The notes under the pieces are model-generated. The model saw only the letters and a program-made list of their open reading frames with translations, was not told the origin of the DNA and did not search any database. The position numbers and the translations under genes are program-made. This document shows positions 7,988 to 20,157 of a stretch of 20,157 bases of DNA, piece after piece (the first letter of the stretch is position 1; every line of letters begins with the position of its first letter). This stretch comes from a virus, in IMG/VR virus record IMGVR_UViG_3300040806_000323, positions 1 to 20,157 of that record. One strand, given 5' to 3'.

Positions 7988-10203
7988 TGCAGAAGATTCG
8001 CATTCCTGTAACCAACTTTGCATTTGGCGAGGTCAGCGAATCTACATTGATGCGCACTGATACGCCTATCTATCAGTCGTCCGCTCAATCAATCACAAAC
8101 ATGATGATCCTGTCTGAGGGTGGTTTGAAGCGTCGGCCCGGATTTAAGGTGCTTGATAAGCTGGACCTTCATTCTGATGCGGCTCGTGACACTACGGTCA
8201 CTTCTCAGGCCCGCTTGTTCCCGTTTATTTTCTCAGGTGATGAACAGTATCTCGTCGGGATATGCGATGCGTATCTATACTTTTGGCGCTATGATCCTTC
8301 TGATGGCAGCACCACCTATCTGATGAGTCTGTCTCAGGACGTTGATACAAATGCCCTGCCCTTCGATAAGGATTATCTTCACGAATACACCTATGCCCAG
8401 TATGGCGATGTGATGTTTGTGGCGCACCCGCTCTTCATGGTTCGTCAAATTGTGCGCACCAGCCTGACTACGTTTGAAGTCAGGACTATGACCTTCGATG
8501 AGCGCAATGATGGGGCTCTAACCTATCAGCCATACAGTTCCTTTCAGTCGTCTAGCACTACGCTTTCTGGATCAGGCACGACTGGCACTATCACATTGAC
8601 CACGAGTGTCGACTATTTCGACACAACTGGCCTGCATGATGGCGTCATTCTTCGCTACCACGATACTGAGGTTCAAATCACTTCGGTTACAAACGCAACA
8701 ACCGCAACGGGCGTTGTGAACGGAACGCTTCGTCAAAGACTTTCCATCTTGAACCCATTCAGAACCATAGACGGATCATCGACCGTTGAGGTTACGCACC
8801 TTAATCATGGGTTTTCTGGCGGTGAGACGATTGTATTCGAGGAGGCGTCTGCTGTTGGCGGGATCAATAGTAGCAGACTGAATGGTTCTCGCACGATCTC
8901 ATCTATCATTGATGAGAACACATACACTTTTACTGCTGGCGACACTGCCAATAGCGCGGAAGATGGGGGCGGCTATGTAAAGGTCGTTACCTCAGCGGCA
9001 ACAACAGTTTGGGAAGAGCAATCCTTCTCTGCGCTTCGGGGTTATCCTGCCGCCGTTTGCTTCCATGAAAATCGCCTTGTGTTTGGTGGAACGATTTCGC
9101 AGCCGGATGCAATCTGGATGAGCAAGAGTGGCGTCTTTTACAACTTTGAAGTTGGGGAAGCTGCTGACGCGGACGCAATCAATCTCGTCGGAGCAAACAG
9201 CGAAGTCCATGAGATCAGGCATATCAAGTCAAACCGCGACTTGCTTGTCTTTACTGCGACCTCTGAGCTCTATGTTCCGACCTACCTCAATCAGGCAATC
9301 ACTCCGAGCAATGCTCAGATCAGGCGGCAAACTCCGTATGGCTCTATGTTCATTGAGCCGCATTCACTTGATGGGGCTACGCTGTTTGCTCAAATCGGCG
9401 GGCGTGTGATTAGGGAATATATCTACACGGATGCTGAGGATGCTTACAGCGCCACTGCTGTTTCGACTATCGCATCGCACCTCATCACCAATCCGAAGTC
9501 TCTGACGGTGTGTCACGGCGCATTCAATGGCGCTGAATCCTATGCTGCATTTCCCTGCACTTGCGGCAGGCTAACCATGTTTTCGTCAAACAGGGCTGAG
9601 AGGCGCGCTGGCTGGTTCAAGTTCTTAACCGATGGGTTCTTCTACGATGCTGCGTCTCTGGATGATCAGCTTTTTGTTCTTGCTTGGATTGATACTGGCG
9701 CTGGTTATGAGCTGGTTCTTGGTCAGTTTGACAATGATTATCTTTTAGATTGCTCTGATACTTATACTGCGACTGCTGGTGTCGCTGATGTGTCTGCGAT
9801 CTGGGATGATGGGGCTGAGCTTTCCGTCATTGATGCTGATGGAAACTACCTTGGCGAGTTTACGGTTGCGTCTGGTGATATTGATATTGGCGACGCCGGT
9901 TACACCGATGATCTTCAGATCGGCTTGAAGTTTGATATCGAGATCAAGACAAACCCTATCGACGCAACGATTGCCAATGGACCGCAAACTGGAGAGATTC
10001 GCGGCATCGTGACTGTTGTGTTGGACTTGGTTGACTCTCGCTCAGTTAGCGTGAACGGAAGGGTTACTCCGTTTAGCTCAACCATATCTGGCAAGAAGGA
10101 AGTCAGGTTGCTTGGATATGGGCGCGATCCTTCTGTGACAATAACTCAATCAAGCCCACTTGCCCTGCAAGTCAATGGCATCATCGCTGAGGTGGTAGTC
10201 TGA
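7987..10203 (+). CDS. Tail tubular protein B (nozzle), T7 gp12-like
   Basis: Six copies should form the tail nozzle that contacts the fibres and closes the DNA channel. The 738-residue length is near T7 gp12 (794). The N-terminus VTNFAFGEVSES, followed by NMMILSEGGLKRRPGFKVLD, is the classic start of the family. AVCFHENRLVFGG and the FTATSELYV region are conserved further on, with a beta-rich C-terminus. Residues about 267-333 (VTHLNHGFSGGETIVF, then NTYTF) look like an extra beta domain common in phage tail proteins and inserted in the nozzle. It overlaps tail tubular A and the next gene by TGATG-type junctions. Confidence 0.93.
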   Translation: MQKIRIPVTNFAFGEVSESTLMRTDTPIYQSSAQSITNMMILSEGGLKRRPGFKVLDKLDLHSDAARDTTVTSQARLFPFIFSGDEQYLVGICDAYLYFWRYDPSDGSTTYLMSLSQDVDTNALPFDKDYLHEYTYAQYGDVMFVAHPLFMVRQIVRTSLTTFEVRTMTFDERNDGALTYQPYSSFQSSSTTLSGSGTTGTITLTTSVDYFDTTGLHDGVILRYHDTEVQITSVTNATTATGVVNGTLRQRLSILNPFRTIDGSSTVEVTHLNHGFSGGETIVFEEASAVGGINSSRLNGSRTISSIIDENTYTFTAGDTANSAEDGGGYVKVVTSAATTVWEEQSFSALRGYPAAVCFHENRLVFGGTISQPDAIWMSKSGVFYNFEVGEAADADAINLVGANSEVHEIRHIKSNRDLLVFTATSELYVPTYLNQAITPSNAQIRRQTPYGSMFIEPHSLDGATLFAQIGGRVIREYIYTDAEDAYSATAVSTIASHLITNPKSLTVCHGAFNGAESYAAFPCTCGRLTMFSSNRAERRAGWFKFLTDGFFYDAASLDDQLFVLAWIDTGAGYELVLGQFDNDYLLDCSDTYTATAGVADVSAIWDDGAELSVIDADGNYLGEFTVASGDIDIGDAGYTDDLQIGLKFDIEIKTNPIDATIANGPQTGEIRGIVTVVLDLVDSRSVSVNGRVTPFSSTISGKKEVRLLGYGRDPSVTITQSSPLALQVNGIIAEVVV

Positions 10204-10664
10204 TGTTCCCTGCACTCTTTATCGCAAGCTCTCTTGTTTCGACTGTAGGTGGCTTTGCAGGCGCTCAGGGGCAGGCAGCTTCTGCTGAGCTCAATGCCTT
10301 TAACATAGAGACGCAGAAGGTTCGCAATGAAGGGCTGGCCCTTCAACGAGCCAATGATAGATATCGTCAGTTCAAACTTGCCGAGTCGGCCAATAGGGCT
10401 CTCTTGTCTGGCGCAATGGGTCGAGATATTGGCGGCGCCGATCGCTCTGTTGCCGCATTCCTTCAGCGCAACCGGGAGACCGCCTATCGTGATCTGGACC
10501 GTATGGAGTCGCAGAAAGAGATGGAGTCGCTCAACTACGAAATCCAAGCGGCAAGCGAGCGTCGTCGTGCAAGTGATGTTCGCACCAGCGGTTTCGTCAA
10601 CGCATTTACTAGCGTAACAAGCACTCTGATGCGTTACGAACAAATCCGTATGCCGGGAGGGTAA
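10203..10664 (+). CDS. Internal virion protein, T7 gp14-like
   Basis: ATG 10203 overlaps the previous TGA (10201-10203). The 153-residue product begins with a hydrophobic, Gly/Ala-rich segment, MFPALFIASSLVSTVGGF, that could insert into a membrane. It continues as Ala/Gln/Arg-rich helices (LALQRANDRYRQFKLAESAN, then AYRDLDRMESQKEMESLNYE). This layout and the position directly after the nozzle gene match T7 gp14 (196 residues), which leaves the virion first and forms a pore in the outer membrane. Sequence conservation in this family is low, so the call leans on position and architecture. Confidence 0.8.
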   Translation: MFPALFIASSLVSTVGGFAGAQGQAASAELNAFNIETQKVRNEGLALQRANDRYRQFKLAESANRALLSGAMGRDIGGADRSVAAFLQRNRETAYRDLDRMESQKEMESLNYEIQAASERRRASDVRTSGFVNAFTSVTSTLMRYEQIRMPGG

Positions 10665-10665
10665 C

Positions 10666-13600
10666 ATGGCTATCACTGCGCCTCGCGTTTTCACTGAGAG
10701 CACTCAGTACCAGAACCAGAACATTGGCGTGGCGCGTGTCTACGAGGGGGCTCAGACCGCAAGCGCCATTGTCAACGGTGCCAATGAGATTGCTGGCATT
10801 GCCTTCCGCTATGCTGCTGAGGATGCAGAACAGCAAGGGACTGAGATGGCTCAGTCAATGGAGCTTGCTGAGGTTATGGCTATTGATCCCAGTACGGGTG
10901 AGCCGGTGGCTCTTAACCAGATGGGTGGAATGGGCCGCATTGGTAGCCAAGCCTATCGCAATGTGATCAATGCCCGCTTTCAGCAAAGCATCGAAGAGGA
11001 AATCCGCAATCAAGCTCAGGTTCTCTCTGCCCAGTATGAGCAGAGCGCTGATGGTGTTGCCCTCTATAGCGATGCGATGGCGGGCTATATCTCGTCTATG
11101 TCTGAGAATGCGACTGGCCAATGGCGCACGTTCATTGAGGACACTGGCACTACCTACCTGAACAGAACGCGCACGGCTCTTGCTGTTCGGCAAATGCGAG
11201 CTCAACGCTCTGCTATGGCATCTCAGGCCCGGGCGGCAAATAGTCAGGCCGCGTCCGCAATACAAGCTGCGGTTGCTCAGGGAGGGCTCTCTGCCCTTGG
11301 CATTCCGCCTGCGCAGACTGAGTTCCGTAGCGTTGAGACCGCACTCTCTGCGCCTCTTAGCATGGGCTCTGGCGGCTTGTCATTTGGTGGCGCTTCGCCA
11401 ATGGCGCTTCAAGCAGGGAATGATAGTCAGCCCGCTCTTAGCTATGGCGATCTTGGGCCTGCTGGCGCGATTGCTTACGATGTTGCCGTTGGTATCAGCG
11501 ACAATGTTGAAGCTGATATCCTTCCGCCCACGGCGTATGAGGGGTGGAGCCAAGCAACTCGTGAGGCTGTGCTCAATGGCTATACCGAGCACTTCCTTGG
11601 CAACATTGATCTTACCGATCCGAATGCTGAGGATCAGCTTGACGCTCTGCGCTTTGCTATCAATTCGCGGAACATTCCTGCGGTTCTGCAAGTTGCTCCT
11701 GAGTTCACGCCATTCGCAAGCATGATGATCAACGATCCAGCTCTGATGGACGAATGGGATGGATACGCTAACCGACTCTTGCAGAACGCTGCTGATCTAT
11801 CGAACATTCAAAGCGCTCCTGCCCGCAATGCTCAGCAAGCTGCCGATGCTTTGGCCGCTGCAAACATTGGCCTTGATACGAACGAGATTGCTGGGAATGT
11901 TCAAGCTGGCGTTCGCTATGATGCGGCTCGTGGCGAATATTCTCGCACTGGTGCTGATGGTATCTCTGGCGCTCTTTCGCTTGTCCAATACTCATTCAAC
12001 ACTGCAAGGGAAGAGCTTGATCCAGATCGGCGGGCTGCGCTTATTGAGCGTGGAGAGGCTGCGATTGATGCAACTCTTCGCGGGCTGGCAAGCGGTGTTG
12101 CGTCTCGCCTGACTTCTGACGAAATTGGATCGCTCCGCTCTGGGATTGCTTCTGGAAATTATGCCGCTTCTGATGATGCCAGGAGCATTTCTGCGCTTCT
12201 TAACGACTTCATTCCGTTTGATGGGGAAGTTTTCTCAACATTTGACAACCTTCTAAGCGACCTTCAAGATTCAACATCTTATGGGCAGAACCAGCTTGAG
12301 TATTCTGCTGCGCAAGAAGTTCGGGATCGCATTGTTCCCGCGATGGATGAGTTGCCATTCCTTGATGGGGTGGCTCTAACTTCATCCGTTGGGGAAATCA
12401 TCACATCCATTGCGGCAACGCCTAACCTTCCAGAAAGTGATCGTCTTCGTTTCACCAATCAGGCATATACGCTTGCTGCACAAGGCGCGATCAATGCCGC
12501 GTTCACGGGCTTGGACAACCTGAATGACGTTTCTCTAGCTCAACAATACGCAGCAAACCCGCAGCTTGATGCGACCAGTTTGCCACAAGAAGTTCGGGAC
12601 AGCATTGATCTTGCGCGCGAGTATGCAGGTCAGGCAGGTCAAGAACGCCTTGTCACCACCTCCGCAAATACCGCTGCCGATCTTAACCGTCGCAACATTC
12701 GAGCCCGAATGGAACGGGAAGAGCAAAACCGTATCGCAGCCGAGGCTATGCTTGGGATAAACCCTGAAGGAAGCGATGCTGCTGTTCTTCAGATGGTCAA
12801 TGCAACGCTTGTGTCTCAGGGTGAACCCCCTCTGGAAGAACTTGGTGCAGCCTTTTTCCTTAGCCCAACGAGCATGTCTCGCTTTGGAAATGTGTTTAAC
12901 GAAATCTACAACCGGCCCGGACTTGAGCCCCCCGGTTTGCTCGACGTATTCTCTGCTGCGGCGAACGGTGGCGGATTGAATTACACGGTCCTTTCTCACT
13001 GGGAAAACTATCGAACGATTGAGACTTCTTCCGGTGTGTTCCCTCGTGCCATTCAAGGAATGAGCGACACTGAGATTGCTCGCCTTGACCTCATGCTTGA
13101 GCTGTCACGCATCATGCCGCTTGGCGACTTGGATGCTGCATCTCAAACAGCGAGAACTTACCTGAATGAAAACAGAGGGCAGATTGAATTTGATGGCCGG
13201 TCGATCCCAGACATTGTGTCTGGGGCTTCGGGCTTTTCTGATCTTGGCCCTTTGCAGCGGCAAGCTATGACAGCTTTTGCTGAGTATTCAGCGGCAATGG
13301 CAAATACTGCACCCGGTTCGATTAACAGTCGAGATCAGCTTAGAAGGGTTGTTGAGCGCGCGATTGAGGCGAATTACCCTGAAGGCGATGGCAACGTCCA
13401 CGATGTAAATGCTGATGGACGTCTTGTGCGCAGGACGCCATACGATCCTAACCGCTATCTTGGTGAGCACACGTCCGATTGGTACAACATTGTTCGTCGT
13501 GAATTGCAGGAGCAAACGAACGCCCCCGTTGTTTTCGCCGGGGAAGTTGACATGAACCTTAGGGAATTGCAGCGCTTTCCCCCTGATGTTCGCTCAGCTG

Positions 13601-14097
13601 TAAGTCGGGATTTGGTTGATGGCACAAGTTATGTGACGCTGGTTCCAGTTGGCCCTGATAGCCTTGGTGGGATTAGCTACATGGTTTATCAGGTAAATCG
13701 AGATACTCTTGAGATGGAGCCTGTCATTCATCAAAGCGGTGAGCTTGAGGGCTTGGCATTTCAGGTCAGCACTGCTGAGGAATCTATCCTTAACGTGATA
13801 CAGCTTGATCAAGCATCCCAAGCTCAACGCGATATGGAGTATGGTCAGATGATTGGAGGCGTTATCGAGCAACCTATGGAGCTCGCCCCGAGCCTTTCTC
13901 GTGCGGTTGGCGAAGCAATGACTGCTGATTTTGTTCCAGATGAGGGACAGATTGCCGACCTTGAAGATGAGCTTTCTATTCTTAGGAATGCGGCTTCTCA
14001 GGTAAGAAGCACTGGCGGGCTTAGGCTAATCCAGCGCGATATAAGAGAGCTAGAGGCGACTCGCCTTGAGTGGCTTCGTCAATACAATAGCAGGTAA
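10666..14097 (+). CDS. Internal virion (ejection) protein, T7 gp15-like, enlarged
   Basis: ATG 10666 follows GGGAGG with good spacing. The 1143-residue product is much longer than T7 gp15 (747). It is helical and rich in Ala, Gln, Ser and Asn, beginning MAITAPRVFTEST. A helix-rich middle includes ARMEREEQNRIAAEAM. Near the C-terminus there is a beta-rich segment (DGTSYVTLVPVGPDS, then ISYMVYQVNRD) and an acidic coiled coil at about residues 1094-1140 (IADLEDELSILRNAASQ). Position between the gp14- and gp16-like genes supports a role in the internal core and periplasmic ejection tube. No transglycosylase or protease signature was seen. The extra length has no identified function. Confidence 0.78.
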   Translation: MAITAPRVFTESTQYQNQNIGVARVYEGAQTASAIVNGANEIAGIAFRYAAEDAEQQGTEMAQSMELAEVMAIDPSTGEPVALNQMGGMGRIGSQAYRNVINARFQQSIEEEIRNQAQVLSAQYEQSADGVALYSDAMAGYISSMSENATGQWRTFIEDTGTTYLNRTRTALAVRQMRAQRSAMASQARAANSQAASAIQAAVAQGGLSALGIPPAQTEFRSVETALSAPLSMGSGGLSFGGASPMALQAGNDSQPALSYGDLGPAGAIAYDVAVGISDNVEADILPPTAYEGWSQATREAVLNGYTEHFLGNIDLTDPNAEDQLDALRFAINSRNIPAVLQVAPEFTPFASMMINDPALMDEWDGYANRLLQNAADLSNIQSAPARNAQQAADALAAANIGLDTNEIAGNVQAGVRYDAARGEYSRTGADGISGALSLVQYSFNTAREELDPDRRAALIERGEAAIDATLRGLASGVASRLTSDEIGSLRSGIASGNYAASDDARSISALLNDFIPFDGEVFSTFDNLLSDLQDSTSYGQNQLEYSAAQEVRDRIVPAMDELPFLDGVALTSSVGEIITSIAATPNLPESDRLRFTNQAYTLAAQGAINAAFTGLDNLNDVSLAQQYAANPQLDATSLPQEVRDSIDLAREYAGQAGQERLVTTSANTAADLNRRNIRARMEREEQNRIAAEAMLGINPEGSDAAVLQMVNATLVSQGEPPLEELGAAFFLSPTSMSRFGNVFNEIYNRPGLEPPGLLDVFSAAANGGGLNYTVLSHWENYRTIETSSGVFPRAIQGMSDTEIARLDLMLELSRIMPLGDLDAASQTARTYLNENRGQIEFDGRSIPDIVSGASGFSDLGPLQRQAMTAFAEYSAAMANTAPGSINSRDQLRRVVERAIEANYPEGDGNVHDVNADGRLVRRTPYDPNRYLGEHTSDWYNIVRRELQEQTNAPVVFAGEVDMNLRELQRFPPDVRSAVSRDLVDGTSYVTLVPVGPDSLGGISYMVYQVNRDTLEMEPVIHQSGELEGLAFQVSTAEESILNVIQLDQASQAQRDMEYGQMIGGVIEQPMELAPSLSRAVGEAMTADFVPDEGQIADLEDELSILRNAASQVRSTGGLRLIQRDIRELEATRLEWLRQYNSR

Positions 14098-14108
14098 GGG
14101 GACGATTC

Positions 14109-17100
14109 ATGGTTGTTGATCCAAGAACCGTTGGCCCTGCGCCCCTTGTGGGTGGTCAGTCTGTTAACTTTTCTCGGCCCACCTTTGGGGAAAGTTGGTC
14201 TGCGTCTACTGGGTTTTATCTTGATCCAATCGCTGAGCGGTTTCGTAATGTCTCTCAGTACGGCCTAACACCTGACCCTGACTATGACTGGCGGTCTGGT
14301 ATTCCTGAGGGAATGAGCCAGTTTGCTGGTGCCTATGCCAGAGCTGTGAACGCAGATCATGCGGCCGAAATTACTAGGGCAATCAATGAGTCTCTGAACC
14401 GACGCGATGTGATGGCTCGGGCTCCGTTCGCTCAACAATTTGCTGCTGAAATGCTCAACCCAATCAACCTTGTTGGCCTTCCTGTAGCGGGCCCTGCATC
14501 CGCCGGTATTCGTGGTATTGGTGGCGCAGCCCTTCGTGGTGGCGTTGCCGCTGGTGCTACTGAGGCTTTGCTGTCTGGTGTGGCTAGTGTTTCCGATCCG
14601 ACAATCACTGGATCGGAGATTGCGGTCAATTCGCTATTCACTGGCTTGTTTGGTGGTGCGCTGACGGGTGGTGCATCTATTCCTGCGGCTCGTCGTCTTG
14701 GCGTTCAACAGCAAATGCAAGCTCAGTTTTCAATGATGGATCGCCTTGCCACCTTGGCTGGTCGTCGTGGCAATGTTGACTTTGAGGCGCTTGCCTCGGC
14801 CCCTGCGCGTGAGAACCGGGCTCTCGGTCAGGATGATACTGTTGAGACTGTTCATGCCGAGTTTGAACAAAGAGCAGCGGCTTTGCAGCGTGAGCTTAAT
14901 CAGCTTGAGCCCGGCTCCGGCGAGTCTCGCATTGTTCAGGATCAACTTGATGAGCTGAGGGCGCAGCAACAGCCGTACAGTCAAGAATTGTACCTTCGTG
15001 ATATTGAGGCTGAGGGCCTTAATGTCAGCGACTTGTATCGCCCTTCTGCTGGAGGTGATAACTGGTTCTTGAACTGGGTAAGCACCCCCATGCGCAGAGC
15101 CTACACTTCCAACTGGGGCAATGAGGTTAAGCGCACGTTTCATCTGCTGGCAGGTGACGGCGGAACTCAACTCAATCTGCACCTTGCTGGTCAAACGGAT
15201 GGCCTGTCTGTCTATCAAAGGTCTGCCACTGAGATGGGTCAGTATGCCAATGTCCATCTTCGCGTTCTTCAATCTTGGGCTGATGATACTAACGCTCCTT
15301 CGATTGGTAGCTCTCGACTGGCTGGCACTGACTTGAATACAACAAGCATGGCTCGCCGCCTTCAAAATACTGGGGATGACTTTGCTTCGTGGATCACTGA
15401 GGTCAACCGTCGTCGCGTGATGGGCGAGGAAATGTCAGAGGCTCAAGCCGCTGCCGCTGCTGAGATTGATCGCTACTTCACGTCTTGGGAACAGCGCCTT
15501 ATTGAGACTGGTCAGATTCGCACCAGAGAAAACATGGGGCGTCAGATCAATCGCCTTGAGGATGAGATAAGCGCGCTTGAGTCTGAGCTTGCTCGCGCTG
15601 AGGCTGGTGCTCGCACTGACCGTCCTGTTGCTGCAATGGAGGGAACGCTTCGCTCTCGTCAGGAGCTCTTGGCTGAGCTTCAATTTGAACTTGAGAACTT
15701 GCCTTCTGGTCAGAGCGTTGAACCATACAACCCGCGCTACTGGAACACTGGTGAGATTAGGCGTAACCGTGATCGCTTTGCTCAGATTCTCAGAGAGCAC
15801 TATGAAGAGAGCCCATATATCTTCACCTACAATAAGCAGGCTCGAAAGTGGGAGCGCACCCGGCTTTCCACTGATCCCGACGCAATCAATGCTCGTGTTG
15901 AAAACACTATCGACACTATCCTTGGTCAGCGTCAGGACGTGGTAGAAGTTTCTGAGCTTTACGTTGGTTCTGGTCGTGGCGGCAATATCCGCGCGCGTCA
16001 GCTCGACATTCCAAACTCTCGGGTCTGGGAGTTTATCGAACAGAACCCAATGGTCACCTTGCGGAACTATGCTGCAAGGACTGCGCCTCAGTATCACTTC
16101 CGCAAAACCTTTGGTGGCAAGACGCGTCAACAGGTTGTTGATCAGTTTCGCAATCAAATGAGGCAGGATGGTCGGAGCGCAAAGGAAATCGCTCGCGCTA
16201 CTCGTGACTTCAACCACATGTACGATCGCGTTGTGGGCGCTGTTCTGCGCGATCCTGAGTCATGGGATCAGCGTGTTGCTGAGGTTCTTCGCTTCGCCGC
16301 ATCGACCACTTACCTTGGCGGCGCTGGTCTTGCCGCTGTTGCGGATGCCGGCCGTTTGATCATGGACACTGACATGGGCGTGTTAGCTCGCGCCATGCCT
16401 GCGTTTTTTGATAGGTCTCTTCGTCAGACTTCTGTGCGGGAAACTCGACTTGCTGGTGCGGCCCTTGAGCTTTTGCTTGGCTCTGCTGGTCAGCGTGTTG
16501 TTGATGATCAGATGTTCAACTTTATGAACAGCGGCAGGATGGATCGCATTCAAAGCGCGTTCCATATTATGAACGGTCTTGGCCCCGTGACTGTCTTTAC
16601 CAAACAGTTTGCTGGTATGACTGGCGCGCACATGATTATTGAGGCTTCTCAGCGTGTTCGTGCTGGTGATGCTACTGCGTTTGATCGCGCCTTCCTTGCT
16701 CGTCTTGGCGTTGATGAAGATGCTGCCGGTAGGATTTCAGATGCACCTTGGCAGGCGGATGTTGAGAGTGGCCTTATCCTGCCCAACACTGAGGCTTGGT
16801 CGAATGGATATACCATTCCCAGAACTGAGGCCGGCCGTGTTAATGTGATTGAGGCTGGCGATGAGGCTTACATCAGTAAGCTGTCTCGTGGTGGTGAAGA
16901 GGTTGCGGCTCGCTACGACCCAACAGCAAACACTATCTACTTCAATAGGGAACTGATTGAAGGTGAGATGTTTGATCGTCGCGCGTGGACTTCGCCGCGA
17001 ATGGAGGGCGTTGATCCTCTTCCCGACAATGCGTTTTCAACTCCGCGTGAGTTTTCCAACTTTGTTATGTGGCATGAGATCATGCACACTCGCTTCTCTG

Positions 17101-17903
17101 CTGATGATCTTGGCTTGCCACCTCAAAGCGCAGTATATGAAAACCGCATTAACCAGATGGCTATGGAACAGCATCGCAACTCAATGCAGGTTGCAGATGA
17201 AACCGTCGAGATTTTTCGCGGCGCGTTGAACACTCACATCAACAACACGATCATCACGGCAACGCCCGCAGATAAGCCAATCATCATGGACGGCGTTGTC
17301 TATGTGCCGGATCACATTGGTGCCCGCTTTGGCTTGGAGCCTGATACTCGCAATCCCGGATACTCTCGTGTCGAGAACGGCCTCTTGGCTCTGCCGTTCC
17401 AGTTCTATTCCTTCTCTTTGGCAAACGTGAACAAGACTGTTGGCCTTATGATGCAGGGCGCTGTTCGCAATCGACTGATGGGCGTAGCAGCCATGATGGC
17501 TATGGGTTACATGGTGACTGCAATCAGAACGCCTGACTACGTTTGGGATAATATGAGCCCTCAGGATAAGCTGGCTCGGTCCTTTGACATGTCTGGCGTT
17601 GCCGCGCTTTACAGTGACCTGATGTACACCACGATGCAGACCACGCTTGCGATGGGTGGGCCAAATCTGACCGGCGGCATTCTGCAACCTCGCTATCCTC
17701 AACAGCCAAGCGCGGTTGACGCAATAACCAATGTGACTGGCGCTGCAAGCGGGTGGACTGCGGACATGATCATGTCGATGATGACTTTTGCCGGGGGTGA
17801 CTACGGCGAAGGCGCGTCCCAATTCATTCGCAATCTGCCGTTTTCTAATCTATGGTTCCTCAAGAATGATGTGAACCAGCTTGGTCGCTACATCTCTGGC
17901 TAA
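14109..17903 (+). CDS. Internal virion (ejection) protein, T7 gp16-like, with predicted zinc metalloprotease domain
   Basis: The 1264-residue size is close to T7 gp16 (1318), the inner-membrane part of the ejection conduit. A Gly/Ala-rich hydrophobic stretch (about 117-195) could contact membrane. Coiled coils lie at about 249-294 and 474-532 (INRLEDEISALESELARAE). The C-terminus has a Met-rich hydrophobic helix (LMGVAAMMAMGYMVT) and the family-like ending FSNLWFLKNDVNQLGRYI. I see no lytic-transglycosylase motif at the N-terminus, unlike T7 gp16. Instead, residues about 935-1040 carry RYDPTANTIYFN, the zinc motif HEIMH (His989, Glu990, His993) and YENRINQMA with Glu1011 as a third-ligand candidate. 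Start ATG 14109 follows AAGGGG. Confidence 0.85.
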   Translation: MVVDPRTVGPAPLVGGQSVNFSRPTFGESWSASTGFYLDPIAERFRNVSQYGLTPDPDYDWRSGIPEGMSQFAGAYARAVNADHAAEITRAINESLNRRDVMARAPFAQQFAAEMLNPINLVGLPVAGPASAGIRGIGGAALRGGVAAGATEALLSGVASVSDPTITGSEIAVNSLFTGLFGGALTGGASIPAARRLGVQQQMQAQFSMMDRLATLAGRRGNVDFEALASAPARENRALGQDDTVETVHAEFEQRAAALQRELNQLEPGSGESRIVQDQLDELRAQQQPYSQELYLRDIEAEGLNVSDLYRPSAGGDNWFLNWVSTPMRRAYTSNWGNEVKRTFHLLAGDGGTQLNLHLAGQTDGLSVYQRSATEMGQYANVHLRVLQSWADDTNAPSIGSSRLAGTDLNTTSMARRLQNTGDDFASWITEVNRRRVMGEEMSEAQAAAAAEIDRYFTSWEQRLIETGQIRTRENMGRQINRLEDEISALESELARAEAGARTDRPVAAMEGTLRSRQELLAELQFELENLPSGQSVEPYNPRYWNTGEIRRNRDRFAQILREHYEESPYIFTYNKQARKWERTRLSTDPDAINARVENTIDTILGQRQDVVEVSELYVGSGRGGNIRARQLDIPNSRVWEFIEQNPMVTLRNYAARTAPQYHFRKTFGGKTRQQVVDQFRNQMRQDGRSAKEIARATRDFNHMYDRVVGAVLRDPESWDQRVAEVLRFAASTTYLGGAGLAAVADAGRLIMDTDMGVLARAMPAFFDRSLRQTSVRETRLAGAALELLLGSAGQRVVDDQMFNFMNSGRMDRIQSAFHIMNGLGPVTVFTKQFAGMTGAHMIIEASQRVRAGDATAFDRAFLARLGVDEDAAGRISDAPWQADVESGLILPNTEAWSNGYTIPRTEAGRVNVIEAGDEAYISKLSRGGEEVAARYDPTANTIYFNRELIEGEMFDRRAWTSPRMEGVDPLPDNAFSTPREFSNFVMWHEIMHTRFSADDLGLPPQSAVYENRINQMAMEQHRNSMQVADETVEIFRGALNTHINNTIITATPADKPIIMDGVVYVPDHIGARFGLEPDTRNPGYSRVENGLLALPFQFYSFSLANVNKTVGLMMQGAVRNRLMGVAAMMAMGYMVTAIRTPDYVWDNMSPQDKLARSFDMSGVAALYSDLMYTTMQTTLAMGGPNLTGGILQPRYPQQPSAVDAITNVTGAASGWTADMIMSMMTFAGGDYGEGASQFIRNLPFSNLWFLKNDVNQLGRYISG

Positions 17904-18259: not shown

Positions 18260-20157
18260 GATTGTTTCTCCCCTGAGCGGTATCCGCAGCCCCTTTGGGC
18301 AGCGGCGTGATCTGTACAAGGTTCTTGGCTTCAAGCCGGGGCTGGTTGCGGACTTCGGGGCCGAATACTACCGCGCGACCGGGCGCACCACGTTTGCCAA
18401 TGCGATCACCCACGCAGCCACCACCAACGCAACGATGGTTGACAGTGACGGGCTGCTCAAGTGGCGTCCCCATAACTTGCTGACGTATAGCGAGGACTTC
18501 ACGAACGCGGCTTGGGGTAAAACAAGCGTCACTGTTTCAGCGGCTGCTGCTACCGCTCCAAATGGATCAACTACGGCAGATTTGGTCGAGTTAGTTGGCG
18601 CTGCGGGGAATAATCAAACTATTTTTACGTTCTACACAATTTCAGCAAATATGACTTATGGTCTTTGGGTCAAAGCCATTACTACTGCTGATGTCGGAAA
18701 AACTATTCGCCTTGACAGCACGGGTGGCGGCGCAGTTGCAAAAACTGTATCTTTGACGGCTGATTGGCAATTTGTATTCATTAGCCCGTCCCCAAATGGT
18801 TATGCGCAATACCGGCTTATTTCTGTTCCCGGCTCAACAGCGACTCAGTTTTACCTCTGGGGCGCTCACCTCTACCGCTCTGACCTAGGCGGCATGGTCA
18901 ACAACCCTGACACCGGCGACAGCTACGTTCCCACAACCTCTGCTGCTGTGTATCTCCCCCGGAGAAACCACCACGTCTGGAACGGCTCTGCATGGGTGAA
19001 CGAGGGCCTGCTGCATGAGAGCGAAGCGCGGACGAACCTGACCACGTATTCAAATGACTTCTCTCAGGCTTATTGGTCGGATCAAAATGCAACTAGAGCC
19101 ACGACCACTGACGATTTTACCACCATAACACCCACCGGCGCTTCATCTGCCATAAGGTTTTCAGGTAACGAGGCTGTATCAGGATCAACTTCGTACGTCT
19201 TTACCGCTGATTTTCGGCAGAACGGCGCTGATTTTGGTTTCGTTCAATTGAACTCGAATGGGGGGACACTTCGCGCAACATCGACCTACATAGACTTTTC
19301 TGACGGTTCCATAACGGTACTTAGCGAGGCTGGCGGTGGGTATTCCGCCCAAGAAGGATTTGTAGAACAGGTTGGGAGCGGTATCTATCGTGTGTCTCTG
19401 GTCGTGACCACTGACGCCGATCACACTGGTTTGAAGGGTTACATTGGGGCAGCTACAGCAGTCGGCACAAAAACATCTTCTGGGGCCGATACCATTGACG
19501 TTCGGTACTCACAGTTCGAAGAAGGCTCCACCCCCTCCAGCTACATCCCCACCAATGGCTCCACAGCCACCCGTGCAGCCGAGACACTGACCATTCCTGC
19601 CGCAACCCTGATCGACGCAGGGATCATCAAGCAAGGGCCGGAGGCGGTCACGAATGGGACGTTCGATACTGACAGTGATTGGACGAAGGGAACCAACGCG
19701 ACCATCTCGGGCGGGCTGCTAACTTACGCCGGAGGGTCTGGGAATACTGATACCTTCCAGCCACTTTCTAACGGAACGATTGAAAGCGGTAAGGTTGTTA
19801 AGGTCACATACACAATTTCAGGGCGCACAGGTGGGTCTGCTACGGTCAGACTAGGTGCTACCTCTGGCACAGCTAGGTCGGCTGATGGGACATATACCGA
19901 TTATCTGGTTTCGCCCGGTTCTGGCACCCTATATGCAGACATTTCTTCTAACTTCGTCGGTTCCATCGACAACATCTCCGTCAAAGAACTCTCCATGCCC
20001 GGTGAGGTGGTCATCGGTGATGAACTAGTCACGAATGGGACGTTTGATACGGATAGCGATTGGACGAAGGGAACCGGTTGGACGATCAGTGGTGTTGCGA
20101 CAGCAACTTCTGCAACTTCTGGCCTTTACCAAGCACTGAGCCTCGTAGCCGGAAACA
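18252..20157 (+). CDS. Modular tail fibre / receptor-binding protein (3' end beyond window)
   Basis: An uninterrupted frame from ATG 18252 runs off the right edge, giving at least 635 residues. It begins REIVSPLSGIRSPFGQR, an N-terminal tag that I recall from tail fibres of alphaproteobacterial phages and that probably docks to the tail. Two related beta modules follow: residues about 75-240 (NLLTYSEDFTNAAW to DSYVPTTSAAVYLP) and 262-440 (NLTTYSNDFSQAYW to GSTPSSYIPTNGS). Then come carbohydrate-binding-like modules starting VTNGTFDTDSDWTKGT at residues 466 and 593, 127 residues apart. This is a receptor-binding architecture for a surface glycan. The Shine-Dalgarno is weak and the start overlaps the previous gene by eight bases, so coupling is likely. 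Confidence 0.85.
   Translation, partial: MREIVSPLSGIRSPFGQRRDLYKVLGFKPGLVADFGAEYYRATGRTTFANAITHAATTNATMVDSDGLLKWRPHNLLTYSEDFTNAAWGKTSVTVSAAAATAPNGSTTADLVELVGAAGNNQTIFTFYTISANMTYGLWVKAITTADVGKTIRLDSTGGGAVAKTVSLTADWQFVFISPSPNGYAQYRLISVPGSTATQFYLWGAHLYRSDLGGMVNNPDTGDSYVPTTSAAVYLPRRNHHVWNGSAWVNEGLLHESEARTNLTTYSNDFSQAYWSDQNATRATTTDDFTTITPTGASSAIRFSGNEAVSGSTSYVFTADFRQNGADFGFVQLNSNGGTLRATSTYIDFSDGSITVLSEAGGGYSAQEGFVEQVGSGIYRVSLVVTTDADHTGLKGYIGAATAVGTKTSSGADTIDVRYSQFEEGSTPSSYIPTNGSTATRAAETLTIPAATLIDAGIIKQGPEAVTNGTFDTDSDWTKGTNATISGGLLTYAGGSGNTDTFQPLSNGTIESGKVVKVTYTISGRTGGSATVRLGATSGTARSADGTYTDYLVSPGSGTLYADISSNFVGSIDNISVKELSMPGEVVIGDELVTNGTFDTDSDWTKGTGWTISGVATATSATSGLYQALSLVAGN
19647..19694 (+). repeat. 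Fibre module repeat, first copy
   Basis: This 48-base segment encodes VTNGTFDTDSDWTKGT and recurs at 20028-20075, 381 bases downstream and in the same frame. The copies differ at four bases, all synonymous, so the 16 residues are identical. Confidence 0.9.
20028..20075 (+). repeat. Fibre module repeat, second copy
   Basis: This is the second copy of the 48-base segment at 19647, with four synonymous differences. It marks the start of another module that continues beyond the window. Confidence 0.9.

Follow-up and report, generated by a model that had tools for sequence, protein, structure and literature searches.

The window analysed here is a stretch of 20,157 nucleotides from a virus (IMG/VR record IMGVR_UViG_3300040806_000323, positions 1 to 20,157), and its element of interest is a putative zinc-metalloprotease module inside a phage ejection protein. 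The protein is encoded by an open reading frame (ORF) at 14109-17903 on the plus strand, as are all window features given below, and has 1264 amino acids. An earlier note on this DNA, made from the letters alone, had called it T7 gp16-like (internal virion protein D-like), and profile comparison bore this out. The match to phrog_342 (internal virion protein with endolysin domain; E 2.3e-35) starts at profile position 223, and hhalign matched a profile of the protein's relatives to a set of eight T7-like gp16s, covering T7 residues 224-1309 (probability 97.6, E 3.5e-12). The set of eight was needed, as no alignment resulted with T7 gp16 alone. Homologous backbone and position in the gene order together identify a T7 gp16-type ejection protein.

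Residues 989-993 of this protein read HEIMH (17073-17087), with the two histidines as predicted metal ligands and Glu990 as the predicted catalytic residue. The proposed third zinc ligand, Glu1011 (17139-17141), lies in YENRINQMA, 18 residues past His993. EFSNFVMW and RYDPTANTIYFN, described in the earlier note as a hydrophobic helix and a strand-like segment, precede HEIMH. The module that contains these residues, termed type A, spans residues about 898-1030 (16800-17198) and is very probably a zincin.

Searches of Pfam, PHROGs, NCBIfam and PADLOC with the module returned nothing relevant, and neither did searches of the PDB by sequence and by profile. The earlier note had proposed a profile search against metallopeptidase families; no match appeared in Pfam up to E 10, and no relevant one in NCBIfam. 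No relative of the type A module was found in 84,980 prokaryote genomes, and among GenBank phages the sole match was Hodr, whose copy is degenerate and lies at a different site. All of the modules found reside in gp16-like proteins.

Conservation of the motif and predicted fold

A HExxH motif alone proves little, because 1% of shuffled versions of the window's gp16-like protein contain one (0.55% contain one with a spaced Glu) and the nozzle (tail tubular B-like) protein of the same window has HEIRH at its residues 408-412 (9208-9222), apparently unrelated to a protease. Conservation was assessed among homologues. A first scan by domain patterns gave 25 loci, all with the motif, and this motif-selected estimate was set aside as biased. 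The scan that replaced it used the C-terminal 185 residues as sole query, independent of the motif; of 323 relatives, 80 were kept, and 77 were scored after exclusion of three too truncated to read. HExxH was present at the module site in 72 of these. The other five (L061, L069, L071, L073 and L090) lack the motif together with the entire module, which is absent as a unit: positions 1-26 of the A8 profile join directly onto positions 160-182, and the middle is gone. No homologue had, as its only copy, a full-length module with a broken HExxH at the module site.

The His, Glu and His of the motif were invariant in 31 of 31 clusters (80% identity), while most neighbouring positions vary. The Tyr-Glu helix was also kept across the clusters (that of L038 is alignable by eye only), and Y1010, E1011, N1012, N1015 and A1018 were invariant among 41 aligned type A modules. 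The four residues singled out in the earlier note, His989, Glu990, His993 and Glu1011, are kept in close and distant homologues, and the loss that it had named as contrary evidence was not seen. Residues 1-700 of 69 homologues, 48,300 residues in all, contained no HExxH. The ratio of nonsynonymous to synonymous substitution rates (dN/dS) of the module was 0.02-0.18 in 14 of 15 measurable pairs, and the module is under purifying selection. In the outlier pair, L083/L124, dN/dS was 0.65 in the type B module described below and 0.17 in the backbone, perhaps as a result of module exchange, misalignment or rapid evolution.

A first AlphaFold2 model, built from 18 sequences, had a core predicted local distance difference test (pLDDT) score near 90. 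The trimmed model (mebc866d23413), built from 41 sequences, gave a mean pLDDT of 85.9, a predicted template modelling (pTM) score of 0.82 and core pLDDT of 91-96. Three beta-strands of a zincin sheet are predicted at residues 912-916, 934-937 and 942-945 (16842-16944), with an additional helix at residues 947-956. The predicted active-site helix (residues 979-995; 17043-17093; local pLDDT about 95) has HExxH near its end, and a second helix (residues 1008-1035; 17130-17213) has Glu1011 near its start. The model and the alignments thus show the features by which a zincin is recognized, namely HExxH, a Glu on a later helix (also in type B) and a three-stranded sheet with two helices. The modelled arrangement is the core given for the zincin metallopeptidases of polyvalent proteins (PMC5512222).

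The structural neighbours of the model were largely zincins. The top nine Foldseek matches in the PDB were all selecase or jannalysin (best E 0.15). VIA-align gave YbeY (Z 6.3, 100 residues, 3.3 Å), IrrE/PprI (Z 5.4, 82 residues, 3.0 Å, 21% identity), jannalysin (Z 5.1), SPRTN (4.9) and ArdC (4.6), and the alignment with IrrE/PprI extends through the Glu helix. Further VIA neighbours were DPP III, ERAP1, CapP, Wss1 and lethal factor, and in a search of viral models four large phage proteins scored E < 0.001, and one that is named metallopeptidase scored E 0.04. The fold expected in the earlier note was not contradicted by these searches, and its guess of an ImmA/IrrE-like peptidase is echoed by IrrE/PprI among the neighbours; the resemblance is structural only, with no significant match to the ImmA/IrrE (M78) family profile. 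Since the individual structural scores are modest, the fold is assigned from the pattern of hits together with the conserved residues: the predicted fold makes a zincin probable, and the conserved residues make it firm.

Exchange of the module at one site

Two module types, type A (that of the window) and type B, share one site in the backbone. Type B differs in its upstream half (DRIITDPxIV) but shares the HExxH and YExRID core, and the profiles of the two types detect each other. On a tree of 69 backbones from which the module had been left out, the module state at the site changes at least 14 times, a count that is approximate, as this was a quick FastTree tree with several long branches. 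Direct pairwise comparison of L115 (type B) with L112 (type A) shows flanks that are 94% and 97% identical with entirely different modules between them, an exchange that holds regardless of the tree. The module behaves as a cassette, swapped between near-identical backbones.

Degenerate copies were also seen. Next to a type B copy with HExxH, L002, L038, L043 and L095 each have a degenerate type A copy that lacks the motif and in L095 reads 'NKEIL'. The cultured Pelagibacter phage Hodr (L003) has a degenerate type A copy at residues about 276-360 of its gp16-like protein, with KEVYR in place of HEIMH, and its usual module site is empty. In cultured Vibrio phage relatives, the backbone is the same but no module is present. 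The relatives found include no cultured phage whose module is intact.

In some relatives (L011, L027, L028, L052, L059 and L092), the loop between the HExxH and Glu helices holds an insert of about 90-240 residues; the window's own module has none. The inserts of L028, L052 and L059 are roughly 90-120 residues long and follow HExxH, and those of L052 and L059 had no relevant family match. Between L027 and L092, the inserts share 65% identity but the backbones around them only 33%, so this insert has moved between lineages. Both inserts keep His, Tyr and Asp in the order found in H-Y-D ADP-ribosyltransferases (ARTs), enzymes that have been reported in polyvalent proteins (PMC5512222), and the L011 insert gave a weak match to ART-PolyVal in Pfam (E 0.1). 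From these residues and this match, the domains nested within the zincin module (L027 5833-7197, L092 4879-6006 and L011 6148-6600) may be ART-like, a weak reading at the level of motifs. A PDB profile search with the L027/L092 insert gave chance matches to DARPins only, which were rejected.

Gene neighbourhood and placement in the T7 model

The surroundings of the ORF are those of an ordinary podovirus structural module, in the order portal, capsid, nozzle, gp14-, gp15- and gp16-position proteins, and tail fibre. Portal, capsid and nozzle matched PF12236 (E 9.5e-97), PF19821 (E 1.3e-63) and PF25675 (E 1.2e-9), respectively. The gp14-position internal virion protein (10203-10664) matched phrog_418 (internal virion protein; E 1.4e-6), and the gp15-position protein (10666-14097), assigned by gene order, had no Pfam match and no recognized enzymatic domain. 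The tail fibre gene contains a 48-nt direct repeat (19647-19694 and 20028-20075; 92% identical, 381 nt apart) that encodes VTNGTFDTDSDWTKGT, possibly a repeated carbohydrate-binding-like unit.

The N-terminal transglycosylase of T7 gp16, which the earlier note could not find in this protein, is indeed absent. As the alignment begins at T7 residue 224, an N-terminal transglycosylase was dropped as a candidate; T7 residues 1-223 have no counterpart, and SLT (PF01464) was detected in none of 16 records (the window and 15 related ones), with or without the module. Amidase_2 was likewise found in none of 11 records of the clade and its relatives. By eye, an ORF of L002 (11187-11780) resembles an N-acetylmuramoyl-L-alanine amidase. 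In L147 (854-2995) and Vibrio phage 121E34-1, the gp15-position gene is annotated as a putative lytic transglycosylase, and on this annotation the cell-wall enzyme may belong to another of the ejection proteins.

In T7, gp16 residues 411-1118 (gp16-C) have been modelled in the host cytoplasm, and TMH II, residues 1119-1290, is the membrane segment (PMC8954989). By profile alignment, the module site corresponds to about T7 residue 1062. This is inside gp16-C and before TMH II, so the module would face the cytoplasm after ejection. The nested ART-like domains of relatives point to the same compartment, as ARTs need NAD+.

Roles considered for the module

The explanation that we favour, at slightly better than even, is a metalloprotease that is delivered with the DNA and most likely acts on host proteins. 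The product of the ORF would, by analogy with T7, be ejected into the host. A compact zincin domain would be inserted in the cytoplasm-facing part of the gp16-like protein, just before the second membrane-inserting region. The protein would exit the virion together with the DNA or before it and span the inner membrane as in T7, so that the zincin domain is exposed on the cytoplasmic side of the host membrane. In the cytoplasm, zinc is predicted to be held by His989, His993 and Glu1011 and water to be activated by Glu990, and the domain would cleave host proteins, such as a regulatory or defence factor, as infection begins. The gain, loss and exchange of the module, its strict catalytic residues on a conserved backbone and the nested ART-like domains argue for a host-directed effector. 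Catalytic activity of the module is likely; that the main substrate is a host protein is about an even call, or a little above it. For the earlier note's proposal of a protease in an injected protein, motif conservation and the zincin-like fold stand as support, and its catalysis and injection are presumed. The note had offered two roles, crossing of the envelope or action on host or phage proteins early in infection, and the first now appears the less likely.

Several points weigh against this explanation. The Foldseek E-values against the PDB are not significant, and the VIA Z scores reach 6.3 at most, with helices of unrelated proteasomal AAA proteins interspersed among the neighbours. For T7, the position assigned to gp16-C comes from a composite model, and all relatives of the clade but one are uncultured contigs. 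Cassette exchange also fits a self-processing protease with a co-evolving cleavage site.

Such a self-processing domain would, within the head or once ejected, cut its own gp16 chain or adjacent ejection proteins and so release or remodel domains, as Iyer et al. proposed for the zincins of polyvalent proteins, citing P1 DdrB processing (PMC5512222). The zincin domain lies in cis within a large multidomain protein, as this would require, and the pairing of degenerate type A copies with HExxH-bearing type B copies in L095 and L002 suggests that one intact copy is wanted. However, the backbone occurs without the module in the five homologues and in the Vibrio phage relatives and therefore works without processing, and exchange of A for B in near-identical backbones is less expected if the module must recognize its own protein. 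Self-processing is considered unlikely.

Another alternative is an inactive zincin fold that binds metal or a partner in a structural or adaptor role, with no cleavage. The copies without HExxH in Hodr (at its other site) and L095 indicate that the fold can persist without catalysis, but the intact motif of all 31 clusters includes the general-base Glu, which a structural metal site would not need. This role appears quite unlikely.

The module might instead replace the T7 transglycosylase in crossing the envelope, cutting peptidoglycan cross-bridges or periplasmic proteins. The missing counterpart to the 223 N-terminal residues of T7 gp16 and the lack of SLT in the window and the 15 related records fit this role, but records without the module also lack SLT, so that its presence does not track SLT loss. 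Moreover, the site maps to the cytoplasmic, not the periplasmic, part of T7 gp16, and peptidoglycan hydrolases are not among the nearest fold neighbours, which makes envelope crossing very unlikely. Finally, a chance motif in a helical protein, for all that shuffled sequences and the nozzle protein also yield HExxH, is contradicted by the 72 of 77 independently found homologues, the predicted fold and purifying selection, and its probability is negligible.

That injected phage proteins can contain zincins is known in principle, as in the N4 virion polymerase (PMC12633501, PMC5512222), and no earlier report of a zincin in a T7-type gp16 was found in the open-access PubMed Central (PMC) literature. 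What is new is that the protein carrying the zincin is of the T7 gp16 type, that the family is missing from Pfam, PHROGs and NCBIfam, and that the module is exchanged as a cassette at a single site. The zincin metallopeptidases of polyvalent proteins (PMC5512222) and domain C1 of N4 vRNAP (PMC12633501) have in common with the module the three-stranded sheet, the HExxH helix and the Glu helix, and they likewise occur in large injected-type phage proteins, with variable inserts between the two helices and in the company of ARTs. ArdC, a fold neighbour of the module, belongs to the polyvalent-protein set. Unlike these zincins, the module sits in a T7 gp16-type protein with no polymerase and is exchanged at one fixed site. 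The N4 domain, the sole member compared of 12 published clades, has no sequence similarity to the module beyond the motif. Polyvalent proteins carry several unrelated enzymatic domains per chain, whereas searches of Pfam, PHROGs and NCBIfam left one in the window's protein.

The minigluzincins selecase, jannalysin and abylysin (4qhj, 4jix and 4jiu) are, like the module, very small zincin scaffolds with HExxH. They are, however, free-standing small archaeal proteins, with no significant sequence match and a Foldseek E-value of 0.15 at best. Known IrrE/ImmA-type members cleave regulators. IrrE/PprI and ImmA-type peptidases (3dti and 8sln) and CapP (7t5t) have HExxH and a downstream Glu in common with the module, but no DNA-binding or sensor domain was seen in the module and no family profile matched; with VIA Z below 8, the likeness is one of shared fold only. 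T7 gp16 has the N-terminal transglycosylase and no zincin, and the window's protein is the reverse. T4 Alt and ART-PolyVal (PF18760) are virion-borne enzymes of the injected or injected type, and some relatives of the window's protein carry nested ART-like domains; the window's copy has no insert, and the ART assignment in the relatives is weak (E 0.1) or by motif only.

Taken more broadly, and with somewhat less confidence than the delivered protease itself, the T7-type ejection proteins of this marine phage clade may have a payload slot, at one fixed position that faces the cytoplasm. An exchangeable metalloprotease, sometimes with a nested ART, would be delivered as a component of the DNA channel and act on host targets in an arms race.

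The gp16-type ejection proteins have so far been described as channel and DNA-binding parts, with a cell-wall enzyme in some phages. If the favoured explanation is true, the cytoplasmic part bears a protease that is intact, under selection and swappable, and the DNA ejectosome would also serve to deliver early effectors, a function already argued for the N4 polymerase and polyvalent proteins. The defined domain of ~130 residues, for which relatives without the module are natural controls, would offer a handle on what injected zincins cut.

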